Shown here in pieces: positions 48,011 through 54,253 of a stretch of 64,000 nt of DNA. The translations under genes and the position numbers were made by a program. This DNA comes from Cupriavidus nantongensis (GTDB lineage Bacteria > Pseudomonadota > Gammaproteobacteria > Burkholderiales > Burkholderiaceae): NCBI RefSeq assembly GCF_001598055.1, contig NZ_CP014844.1:2720967-2784966 (forward strand). Direction: 5' to 3'. Under the pieces are notes generated by a model. The model was not told where the DNA came from, searched no databases, and was given only the letters and a program-made list of their open reading frames with translations. Numbering within the stretch: the stretch's first letter is position 1; each line of letters begins with the position of its first letter.

Positions 48011-49702
48011 TCAGTCGCCGCGCCTGAGCTTGCGCACCACGCTGGACTGGCTGATGCCAAGCGCCCGTGCGACCTCCCGGGTATTGCCGTACTTGCGCAT
48101 CGCGTCCTCGATGAGCCGGCGCTCGAAACGGTCGACGCGCTGGCGAAAGGTGCTGGCGTCGAGGATCTCGGCCGGCAGCACCCCGTCGAGGAACGCCGGC
48201 TCGACAAGGTCGCTCTGGCTGGTCACCACCAGCCGCTCTACCACGTTGCGCAGCTCGCGCACGTTGCCGGGCCAGTCGTACGCCAGCAGCAATGTCATTG
48301 CCTCCTCCGATACGATGCGGTTCACGCCATAGCGCTGGTTGAATTCCCGCAGGAACTGGAACACCATCGGCGCGATATCGTCCTTGCGCTCGGCAAGCGG
48401 CGGTACGCGCAGCGGCACCACATTGAGGCGGTAGAACAGGTCGTCGCGAAACGTGCGCTCGCGGACCATCGCTTCGAGGTCGCGATTGGTGGCCGCGACG
48501 ACGCGCACATCGACCGGCACGGTACGCGTCGAGCCGAGGCGCGATATCACGCGGTCCTGCAACACTTGCAGCAACTTGACCTGCAGGTCCAGCGGCATGT
48601 CGCCGATCTCGTCGAGAAACAGCGTGCCGCGGTTGGCCAGCTCGATGAGGCCCGACTTGCCCTGCCGCTGCGCCCCGGTGAAGGCGCCCGCTTCATAGCC
48701 GAACAGTTCCGATTCCAGCAGGTCGCGCGGCACCGCGCCGCAGTTGATCTTGATGAGCGGTCCCGCTGCGCGCGGACTCTCGCGGTGGATCAGGCGCGTG
48801 ATCACGTCCTTGCCTGCGCCCGACGGGCCCGTGATCAGGACGGTGGCATCGACCTTGGCAACGCGCACGGCCAGCGATGCCACCCGGTGCATGGCCTCGC
48901 TGCGGATCACCAGGCCATCGACGTTCAGGTTCTGTGTCCGCAGCGCTTCGATCTCCTCGTCCACGCGCCGCAGGTCTGCCTTGGCCTGCGCCAGTGCATC
49001 CTGCAACTGCACCAGTTCGGTGGTGTCGCGCGAATTGATCACGACTTTGCGTACCTTGCCCGCGCCGTCGAATAGCGGCATGCCGGTGACCATGATGGTC
49101 TTGCCGGTGTGCGTATGTTGCGTGGTGGTGATGCGCTGGCCGGTTCGGGCAACGTGCTGGGCGACCACCGGGCGAATCCATCCCTTCTTCTCGAACTCCG
49201 AGACGTGGTGGCCAATCATGTCTGCTGCCGGCAGATCGTAGTTCCGCTCGCAGCCCTCGTTGACCATCATGGTGACGCCATTGCCGTCGGCGACAAAGAT
49301 GCCATCGAAGGAATGGTGGAAGATCTCCTCCAGATCGCCACAGTGCTGGCGTAGCTTGTCTATCGCGGGAAAGACGGTCTCGTGCCCGTCAAGGGGCATC
49401 AGCATGACGAGGGTGTACTGGCCCTGTGCATGCACGCCGACCGCATAGGTCCGCCCGGACAGCGAGACCGTGTCCGGCACGGAGGCCGGGTCCGCGCGAA
49501 GCGCGGACAACAGACGGCTCCAGGACATCGCATCCTGCCGGCCGCCGTCGCCGTCGCCGTCGCCGTCGCCCTCGCCCTCCGTCCGCGCCGGCTCGCCGTG
49601 ATGTCTGCCCACGGCATCGCGCGCGACGGCGTTCTGCAGCACCACGGCGTCGCCGCGCAGCCACACCAGGCCGATCGGCAACGCTTCCAGTATCTCCACC
49701 AT
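48011..49702 (-). CDS. Sigma-54-dependent PAS/AAA+/Fis transcriptional activator
   Basis: A 563-residue enhancer-binding protein. Residues 1-100 form an unrecognised N-terminal sensor with a Gly-Asp repeat; residues ~120-235 a PAS domain ([20 protein letters not shown]); then the AAA+ domain with Walker [11 protein letters not shown], the sigma-54 contact loop [13 protein letters not shown], Walker [11 protein letters not shown] and R-finger region; and a Fis-type HTH at the end ([20 protein letters not shown]). No phosphoreceiver domain, so control is by ligand sensing. Divergent from the DUF485/ActP/dehalogenase operon, whose promoter is of sigma-54 type. Confidence 0.93.
49545..49580. repeat. 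In-frame hexanucleotide repeat within the activator gene
   Basis: Four perfect GCCGTC units followed by two GCCCTC units, encoding an alternating Gly-Asp/Gly-Glu run in the N-terminal region. Copy-number change in six-base steps would keep the frame. Confidence 0.75.
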
Positions 49703-49796
49703 TGGCTTGTTTTCCCCAGGCCACTTGTCCGTCGGGCCGTGCGGCGAGCTTACACCACGTCGTTGCGGGTTCGAAAGCCGCCACGCCCGCCCGCCG

Positions 49797-49816
49797 CTGA
49801 TTCATATCTGAATCAG
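49797..49816. promoter_or_regulatory. Palindromic upstream activator site
   Basis: CTGATTCA-N4-TGAATCAG, a perfect 8-bp inverted repeat between the activator gene and its divergent operon. It lies about 120 bp upstream of the sigma-54 promoter, a normal position for an enhancer bound by a Fis-type HTH dimer. Confidence 0.7.
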
Positions 49817-49930
49817 GCGCCGTCAAAAGCGGTTCGCGTTACCGGGCCGGCATGCGCGCCCAGCGTGCGGCCGTGCCGCGATTCGATCGCGCGTGGGCAT
49901 TGGCAGCGCCGGGGCGCCGTGGCTCGCACG

Positions 49931-49947
49931 TCGGCATGCCGCTTGCT
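49931..49947 (+). promoter_or_regulatory. Sigma-54 (-24/-12) promoter of the haloacid operon
   Basis: TCGGCATGCCGCTTGCT matches the -24/-12 consensus with GG at 49933-49934 and GC at 49945-49946, exactly ten bases apart, plus TTGCT. It faces the DUF485 gene 93 bp downstream and lies in the same gap as an activator of the sigma-54 class. Confidence 0.7.
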
Positions 49948-52778: not shown

Positions 52779-52791
52779 GCGGCTGCCGCTG

Positions 52792-52825
52792 GCCTCCGCC
52801 CTTCCCGACGGGGAGGGCGCGAGGC
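52792..52825. terminator. Hairpin between convergent genes
   Basis: GCCTCCGCCCTTCCC and GGGGAGGGCGCGAGGC can pair with one mismatch and a small bulge around a GAC loop, 14 bp after the dehalogenase stop. No U-tract follows; it could end transcription from either side. Confidence 0.45.
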
Positions 52826-52918
52826 GGCGGCAATCCAGCCTGCCGTGCCACCCCTGGTTCCCCCTGCTCCGCTGATTCCCTACTTCCTTACTTCCCGATA
52901 CTTCCCCGCTGCTTCCTC

Positions 52919-54253
52919 TTACATCCTGCCCGTGGCTGTCGCGGGCGCATAGCGCCCCGACAGCGCCCCATACAAGGGCGGCACCGCCATCCTCGATACG
53001 CCGGCCGCGATCAACGCGGTAGCCATCAGCGGAATCGTCAGGCCGCGCGCTCCCACCAGTTCGATCATCACCACGAAAGCCGTGACCGGGCGCTGCGTCA
53101 CCGCGGCAAGATAGCCGCACATCGCCAGTGCCGCGTACACCGGCAAAGGTGCCTGCCCGATCGTGTATTGGAGCAGGTTGCCGATCCCTGCGCCGATGGC
53201 CAGCGATGGCACGAACAGGCCGCCCGGAATGCCGGACAGCCAGGTCAGCAGCAAGGACAGGCCCTTGAGGAAGGGATACGCAGCCGGCAGCACGAGGTCG
53301 CCGGCCAGCAGCGCGCGCGTTTCGCCGTACCCGCTGCCGTGGCTGGTTCCCGATGACGCCAGCCCGAGGAGCGCAACGCCCAGCCCGCACAGCGCGCCGA
53401 ACATTGCAGGGCGTTGCGCGCGCAGACCGCGTATCCGAGGCGGCAACCACCGCTCGCTGTGAACCAGCAGCCAACAGAAGCCGGCGCCGGCCAGCCCGGC
53501 CACCGCGCCCGCTGTCACGACCGCGACAGCCATGCGGTACGGTGCCGACGGGCCGGCCGCTATCATGCCGAGCGCCGGACCCTCGCCTTGCAGCACGCCC
53601 GCCACGGTGCCGGCACAGACCACCACCGCGATCAACGCCGCGCTGCCGCGCGGCGGGATGCCGCGCGCCAGTTCCTCGATGGCGAAGGCAATGCCGGCCA
53701 GCGGCGTGCAGAACGCTGCCGACAATCCGGCCGACGCGCCGGCAAGGGCAAGCTGGCGATCGAGCGCGGTGAGATGGGCGCCGGCTGGACCGGACAGCCC
53801 GGGGAGCCACCGGCGGAGGCTGACGAGCAGCGCGGCGCCGATATGGACGGTGGGGCCCTGGCGGCCGAGCGTGAAGCCGCCCAGCGTGCCGAGAAAGGAC
53901 AGGCCGATCTTGCCGACGATCACCGCCGGCCGCAGCAGACGCCGCTTAGCCGTTCCATTGCCGCCGCTGACGATGGCCACGATCTGTGGAATGCCACTGC
54001 CTTCGGCACCGTCGAAATAGCGGTGTGTGAGCCAGACTGCGAGTGCGCCCAGTGCTGGCGAAAGCAGCAAGGTGACCCACGGCCCGTGGGCGCTTGCCGC
54101 GAGAAACAGCTGGTGGCCGATGTCGATCAGCCAGGCATATAGCGTGGCGACACCGCCGACCAGGGTGCCACCGACGCACAGTACGGCGTGATGCCACCAC
54201 AGCCGGCCACGGGCCCGTGGTTTCCTCCAGTTCGCGCTCCCACGCAGCTCCAT
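52919..54253 (-). CDS. CLC-family chloride channel/transporter with glutamine at the gating position
   Basis: A 444-residue CLC protein. Chloride-selectivity motif GSGIP is intact (S86). The second motif, GREGP in most CLCs, is GRQGPTVHIGA: the external gating glutamate is Q132 (codon CAG). The internal proton glutamate region (PLAGIAFAIEEL, E193/E194) and the C-terminal tyrosine (PPLYGAL) are present. In the E. coli exchanger the same E to Q change uncouples chloride from protons and leaves passive chloride flow. Convergent with the haloacid dehalogenase, whose reaction releases chloride in the cytoplasm. No regulatory CBS domains. Confidence 0.92.
   Translation of the reverse strand: MELRGSANWRKPRARGRLWWHHAVLCVGGTLVGGVATLYAWLIDIGHQLFLAASAHGPWVTLLLSPALGALAVWLTHRYFDGAEGSGIPQIVAIVSGGNGTAKRRLLRPAVIVGKIGLSFLGTLGGFTLGRQGPTVHIGAALLVSLRRWLPGLSGPAGAHLTALDRQLALAGASAGLSAAFCTPLAGIAFAIEELARGIPPRGSAALIAVVVCAGTVAGVLQGEGPALGMIAAGPSAPYRMAVAVVTAGAVAGLAGAGFCWLLVHSERWLPPRIRGLRAQRPAMFGALCGLGVALLGLASSGTSHGSGYGETRALLAGDLVLPAAYPFLKGLSLLLTWLSGIPGGLFVPSLAIGAGIGNLLQYTIGQAPLPVYAALAMCGYLAAVTQRPVTAFVVMIELVGARGLTIPLMATALIAAGVSRMAVPPLYGALSGRYAPATATGRM

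Follow-up and report, generated by a model that had tools for sequence, protein, structure and literature searches.

A probable haloacid catabolic cassette of the dhlRCB type on a mobile segment of Cupriavidus nantongensis, with a glutamine-gated CLC protein beside it

The window analysed here is a 64,000-nucleotide stretch of the Cupriavidus nantongensis genome (GCF_001598055.1, contig NZ_CP014844.1, positions 2,720,967 to 2,784,966), and near its right end lies a putative cassette for the uptake and dehalogenation of haloacids. Four genes make up its core, which we call the quartet: a sigma-54-dependent activator gene and, divergent from it, genes for a DUF485 membrane protein, a symporter and a haloacid dehalogenase. 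A fifth gene, for a CLC chloride transport protein, converges on the dehalogenase gene from the right (Table 1). An earlier reading of the same DNA, the original prediction, had assigned five open reading frames (ORFs) between 48011 and 54253 to these families, and we find all five at those places and in those families.

Genes and control sites of the locus

Table 1. Features of the cassette, its control sites and the segment that carries them, in window positions. MAG, metagenome-assembled genome.
Feature	Position	Strand	Remarks
Mobile segment common with IncP plasmid pYS1	47744..57526		9.8 kb, 99.2% identity
Stretch common with a Ralstonia MAG	48006-56919		99.2% identity
PAS/AAA+/Fis sigma-54-dependent activator	48011..49702	-	ORF and domain matches
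Operator palindrome CTGATTCATATCTGAATCAG	49797..49816		Candidate upstream binding site of the activator; one copy in the genome
-24/-12 (sigma-54) promoter-like site CGGCATGCCGCTTGCT	49932..49947	+	~93 bases 5' of the DUF485 start codon
DUF485 membrane protein	50040..50432	+	Overlaps the symporter start
ActP/MctC-like SSF symporter	50429..51985	+	Profile matches; clade met in this analysis only next to haloacid dehalogenases
L-2-haloacid dehalogenase (HAD type II, L-DEX type), 228 aa	52092..52778	+	TIGR01428, catalytic residues
CLC chloride transport protein, Gln132 gate	52919..54253	-	PF00654; convergent; cassette membership unproven
DUF3701-type tyrosine integrase	55148-56869	-	Within the mobile segment

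The dehalogenase scores 226.8 bits against TIGR01428, well above the cut-off of 125.4, and is identical to L-DEX YL at 131 of 219 residues. The claim of a complete L-DEX catalytic set is borne out, as all nine catalytic residues stand at their canonical numbers (D10, T14, R41, S118, K151, Y157, S175, N177 and D180). Also kept are Y12, Q42, L45, F60, N119 and W179, which we take to be substrate-pocket and halide-cradle residues. The list of catalytic residues is that of Table 3 in PMC4899344.

Profile matches divide the activator into PAS_4 (with the PAS domain at residues 128-231), Sigma54_activat and a Fis-type helix-turn-helix (HTH_50/HTH_8), with no Pfam match to the N-terminal region. Its central domain contains a Walker A motif at residue 292, GAFTGA at 339 and LDEIGD at 363, and rpoN is present in the host genome. 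The best NCBIfam models for the symporter are MctC and ActP, and both score under their curated cut-offs (526 of 670 bits for NF058657, 502 of 750 for NF006903 and 429 of 1099 for TIGR02711). We therefore reject its identification as ActP itself and regard it as an SSF relative.

The spacer between the activator and DUF485 genes holds both control elements that had been predicted, a palindrome and a -24/-12 promoter, with the palindrome about 130 bases upstream of the promoter-like site. The palindrome is likely the binding site of the activator.

Recurrence of the quartet and its operator

We surveyed the best 80 of 299 confirmed named genome loci that encode a relative of the dehalogenase. 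Nine of these carry activator (-), DUF485 (+), symporter (+) and dehalogenase (+) in fixed order (L004, L005, L015, L020, L026, L038, L045, L055 and L057). One, L004, has the window allele; the other eight come from Trinickia, Variovorax, Pseudomonas, Herminiimonas and four MAGs. At three further loci (L014, L019 and L028) a divergent activator adjoins the dehalogenase and the symporter is missing. The quartet is also found on two of the four plasmid records returned by the dehalogenase search, pYS1 and Polaromonas sp. JS666 plasmid 1, and on a plasmid of Xanthobacter dioxanivorans returned by the symporter search. Thus the neighbourhood comparison called for by the original prediction reveals recurrent clustering of the quartet, at nine of the 80 named loci and on three plasmids, and a chance neighbourhood of unrelated genes is rejected for it on account of this recurrence across loci and plasmids. 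The same counts leave no support for calling the pairing of an ActP/DUF485 carrier and a sigma-54 activator a distinct design, as had been proposed.

The recurrence extends to the control sites. We scored 14 activator/first-gene spacers (the window, L005, L015, L020, L026, L038, L045, L055, L057, JS666 as L087, X. dioxanivorans as L131, and the activator-only loci L014, L019 and L028) against an operator TGAKTCA-N-TGAMTCA, trying half-site spacings of 0 to 10, and against the sigma-54 pattern TGGCAC-N5-TTGCW. The common operator is TGAKTCA-N4-TGAMTCA, a spacing of 4 giving the top score in 14 of 14 spacers (sole best in 11, tied in L005, L057 and L131). Summed operator scores reach 175, compared with a mean of 135 and a maximum of 141 over 200 shuffles, and summed sigma-54 scores reach 136, compared with a mean of 78 and a maximum of 104. 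None of 200 dinucleotide shuffles of the window's own spacer equalled the score of its 18-bp operator. With at most one mismatch, the operator occurs at a single place in the whole genome (7.14 Mb, 3 contigs), so the circuit looks private to the cassette. Sigma-54 haloacid cassettes thereby gain a common, testable operator sequence.

Several observations weigh against reading the locus as a sigma-54-controlled cassette. The window's sigma-54 site is imperfect, matching 9 of 11 positions, and is not significant alone (its score is reached in 9% of shuffles); as the 13 other spacers have equivalent sites at 9-10 of 11, it is convincing only jointly with these. The same spacers served both to derive the operator model and to score it, and the X. 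dioxanivorans spacer has no significant operator, its score being reached in 48.5% of shuffles. Neither an activator nor a symporter adjoins the dehalogenase at 68 of the 80 loci, some of them on contigs that stop nearby; within this group a generic 45% activator match lies past the CLC gene of L021, and a 24% SSF match lies 4 kb off at L037. The two remaining plasmid records from the dehalogenase search, pUO1 and pDCA, showed no quartet partners by tblastn. It follows from the 68 loci and these two plasmids that the family of the dehalogenase is not dependent on these partner genes.

Could the operon instead serve general acetate or glycolate uptake, with the dehalogenase incidental? The symporter is ActP/MctC-like, and E. 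coli ActP is described as carrying acetate and glycolate (PMC3552994). Against this, the clade of the symporter, taken at 70% identity or more, was encountered in 2 of 399 genomes of the order, both times beside a dehalogenase, and the next best match was 49% identical (the window and G420 symporters are 79% identical to each other). On plasmids, symporters at least 60% identical were found on 3 of 95 records, each time next to a dehalogenase; the remaining 92 records fall below 60% and, among the matches listed, reach at most 47%. By these comparisons the symporter forms a clade of its own. At L014, L019 and L028, moreover, the activator and operator stand directly before a dehalogenase that has no symporter gene with it, and we consider general acetate or glycolate uptake quite improbable.

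On this evidence the locus is very likely a dhlR-dhlC-dhlB-type cassette for haloacid catabolism that moves horizontally and joins sensing, import and dehalogenation under sigma-54 control. The sensor domain of the activator would detect a haloacid or a related cue, and the protein, bound to the operator, would reach the RpoN polymerase at the -24/-12 site by looping, and so switch on the DUF485, symporter and dehalogenase genes as one operon. To judge from its family and neighbourhood, the symporter with its DUF485 partner would import short 2-haloacids such as chloroacetate and 2-chloropropionate at the expense of an ion gradient. The dehalogenase would then replace the halogen by the Asp10 ester mechanism, presumably on these substrates, and so release chloride and a 2-hydroxyacid that central metabolism can use; for the chloride, the glutamine-gated CLC protein might conceivably provide an exit. 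Of the functional link originally proposed for all five genes, the part concerning the first four stands, upheld by order and orientation across genera and by a common operator and promoter; the part concerning the CLC protein is doubtful, as one in ten other quartets has a CLC gene nearby, two of the ten being on contigs cut short downstream.

The mobile segment and its surroundings

Near-identical copies in three genomic settings (the window, pYS1 and the Ralstonia MAG) indicate that the block is mobile. The segment also contains the end of an AraC gene and a LysE gene. Between pYS1 and the window we count 19 substitutions, a 6-base indel and a 54-base indel; a 54-bp stretch at 52851-52904, between the stop codons of the dehalogenase and CLC genes, is missing from pYS1. 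The pYS1 copy begins within the AraC gene, which continues in the window and has relatives at 76-80% in the genus (G005 and G017). Because this gene is cut on the plasmid and continuous here, with relatives in the genus, the comparison suggests that the source of the pYS1 block was a chromosome resembling this one. In the activator gene, an Asp/Gly-rich repeat has one additional CGCCGT unit in pYS1, near window position 49542.

The right edge of the pYS1 segment and the left edge of the MAG segment abut 38-bp terminal repeats, which we take to be of the Tn3 type. These repeats were not found in the window at up to 4 mismatches, and a comparison of the ends of the common segment gave no clear pair of terminal inverted repeats. 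In 35 genomes of the same genus, none of the matches listed (5 candidates scored per genome) covers the block; those listed fall on AraC, LysE and the integrase, and weakly on the activator or symporter. The integrase has DNA relatives at roughly 68-80% in many of these genomes, again among the matches listed, and further copies in this genome (C1:3639486, 1980716 and 2036670); it belongs to a multi-copy mobile family that occurs without the cassette.

To the right of the cassette, 57053-63663 is about 83% identical to parts of the Cupriavidus gilardii plasmid NZ_OP484953 (single-stranded DNA-binding protein, integrase), and this region is possibly the remnant of an integrated plasmid or of an integrative and conjugative element. 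The guanine-plus-cytosine content is 58.6% at 57000-64000 and 64.1% at 1-40000. Upstream of its cassette, beside IS5 transposases, pYS1 bears a second DUF485/acetate-symporter pair (L084 4582-6581), whose symporter is 41% identical. Farther left in the window, genes for MsrA and cytochrome P460 lie at 44434-46746, and msrA-msrB DNA has matches of about 77% on many plasmids; of those listed, most are enterobacterial or from Acinetobacter. A region at 25437-36442 with genes for a molybdopterin oxidoreductase, LysR regulators, a histidinol-dehydrogenase-like protein and a TctC receptor is possibly devoted to small-molecule catabolism. In the left part, 7818-18816 encodes two IucA/IucC siderophore synthetases, a chromate transporter and an RND efflux protein.

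The CLC protein and comparison with known systems

The altered gate ascribed to the convergent CLC protein is present: the gating glutamate of GxEGP is replaced by Gln132 in a GRQGP motif (codon CAG at 53858-53860), and the filter residue Ser86 (GSGIP), the inner Glu194 and Tyr428 are retained. The CAG codon is identical in the window, pYS1 and MAG copies. The gate glutamate is kept in each of the 29 other CLC relatives that the order sample supplied, with GAA as its codon in the five closest. A codon-pattern search of 399 genomes of the order for GRQGPTV(H/Q), a pattern that would miss other motif variants of a glutamine gate, returned only the window and one match in an 18-residue non-CLC frame. 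By these comparisons the change from glutamate to glutamine is real and unusual. In a bacterial exchanger the equivalent change, E148Q, is described as uncoupling chloride/proton exchange and leaving a passive chloride conductor (PMC5362633). The E. coli ClC-ec1 E148Q protein (PDB 1OTU) aligns at GRQGP and likewise combines a glutamine gate with a kept chloride filter and inner glutamate, but it is an engineered mutant, whereas the window CLC is natural and only distantly related. Given a real glutamine gate and this precedent, channel-like conduction of chloride is a fair prediction for the window CLC.

Whether such a channel belongs to the cassette is a separate question. As a dedicated exit, it would let the chloride of dehalogenation leave passively through the glutamine gate, driven by the inside-negative membrane potential. 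The exchanged gate within an otherwise retained set of residues, the E148Q precedent and the presence of the CLC gene in all three copies of the window allele favour such a role. CLC genes of other lineages also lie within 10 kb at three further named loci (L020, L021 and L023), which makes three in 1.04 Mb (L005-L061) where about 0.57 would be expected from the mean CLC density in 20 large genomes of the family, a suggestive excess by a rough, post hoc and hand-worked estimate.

A wider comparison turns against a dedicated exit. Ten quartets lie outside the window allele, eight in named genomes and two on the JS666 and X. dioxanivorans plasmids. In the stretches seen around them a single CLC gene turned up, at L020; it lies on the regulator side and encodes a protein with 38% identity and a glutamate gate. 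The contigs of L005 and L026 end less than 450 bases past the dehalogenase; in the eight quartets with a visible downstream stretch (2.4 to 10 kb seen), no CLC gene lies downstream of the dehalogenase. The CLC proteins of L021 and L023 are 27-28% identical, have long C-terminal extensions and are encoded downstream of symporter-less dehalogenases. In the window, the CLC gene is convergent and has no operator copy of its own. No cassette genes occur in the flanks (about 1.5 kb or less) of the 29 CLC relatives, and of the 93 dehalogenase places in the order sample, only two have a CLC gene listed within 10 kb (joined by eye): the window and G420, the latter being the same place as L020. With one in ten other quartets having a CLC gene nearby, the CLC as a conserved partner is not supported. 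The CLC-dehalogenation link is accordingly weak, and we hold a dedicated exit to be doubtful.

The CLC gene is more probably a passenger, an ordinary CLC gene that the mobile segment gained between its dehalogenase gene and its LysE/integrase portion, with a gate changed by drift or for an unrelated role. Its convergent orientation, the operator it does not share and its absence from what is seen of nine of the ten other quartets (two of them short downstream) all fit a passenger, as does the company of an apparently unrelated LysE gene and of an integrase family that is multi-copy in the genus. Less easily explained are a full-length CLC frame in both the window and pYS1, a glutamine codon that is the same in three copies, and a retained filter and inner glutamate, which do not look like decay.

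There is a modest chance that the cassette recruited a naturally uncoupled CLC protein, in which Gln132 would make a proton-independent passive exit that relieves chloride build-up, completing an element that imports, cleaves and exports. If so, selection for halide release would have produced in nature what the E148Q mutant is in the laboratory. A CLC working as such an exit would be a natural uncoupled bacterial CLC and would address the disposal of chloride in dehalogenating cells. Our literature search returned nothing relevant on a chloride channel together with haloacids, a permease and a dehalogenase, on a cation acetate symporter with a dehalogenase, or on pYS1. Export of fluoride, released from a fluorinated substrate, is the remaining alternative. 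The GSGIP filter of the window CLC is of the chloride type, presumably not a fluoride-type signature; the protein matches ClcA, and the dehalogenase most resembles L-DEX YL. A comparable HAD type II enzyme has been proposed for defluorination (PMC13419579), and all the same we give the fluoride reading hardly any credence.

The layout of the window, with a divergent sigma-54 activator, an SSF carrier and a dehalogenase in fixed order and a promoter before the carrier, corresponds to the dhlRCB type. The dhlR-dhlC-dhlB genes of Xanthobacter autotrophicus GJ10, studied by van der Ploeg and Janssen in 1995, reportedly comprise a sigma-54 activator, a Na+-symporter-type carrier and a dehalogenase, with a -24/-12 promoter, and we know of no CLC protein from that locus. 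The X. dioxanivorans plasmid has the same arrangement in the same genus, with a dehalogenase about 50% identical to that of the window. Polaromonas sp. JS666 plasmid 1 (NC_007949, 289302-293685) shares the gene order and orientation, and its spacer contains both an operator and a sigma-54 site; its activator, symporter and dehalogenase are 56-70% identical and its DUF485 protein 40%, its regulator is shorter (474 aa as annotated), and no CLC gene was seen in the stretch examined. Burkholderia cepacia pYS1 (NC_019369) has the same allele, including the CLC, LysE and integrase genes, and differs in being plasmid-borne, in its truncated AraC gene and in a right-hand element with 38-bp inverted repeats.

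The deh4a-deh4p genes of Paraburkholderia caribensis MBA4 likewise join an inducible dehalogenase to its own haloacid importer (PMC2777183, PMC3931356), which is described as an MFS metabolite:H+ symporter, unlike the SSF carrier of the window (PMC2777183, PMC3552994). This MFS-type operon represents the second known design, next to the dhlRCB type. The premise of the original prediction, that haloacid loci usually pair the dehalogenase with an MFS permease, thus holds for the MBA4 operon (PMC3931356, PMC2777183). For "usually" we can give no rate, since the neighbours of symporter-less dehalogenases that we viewed were ten picked by hand (9 of 139 listed and one second neighbour): two MFS, two GST and one each of SDR, CGNR regulator, ApbA, alpha/beta hydrolase, PAS kinase and PAP2. 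The symporter-type design, for its part, is met in betaproteobacteria and again in Pseudomonas and Xanthobacter, both on plasmids and in genome contigs. That the core of the locus is a recurrent, already known design, matching dhlRCB, is well supported by these comparisons, with the glutamine-gated CLC protein as its one odd neighbour.

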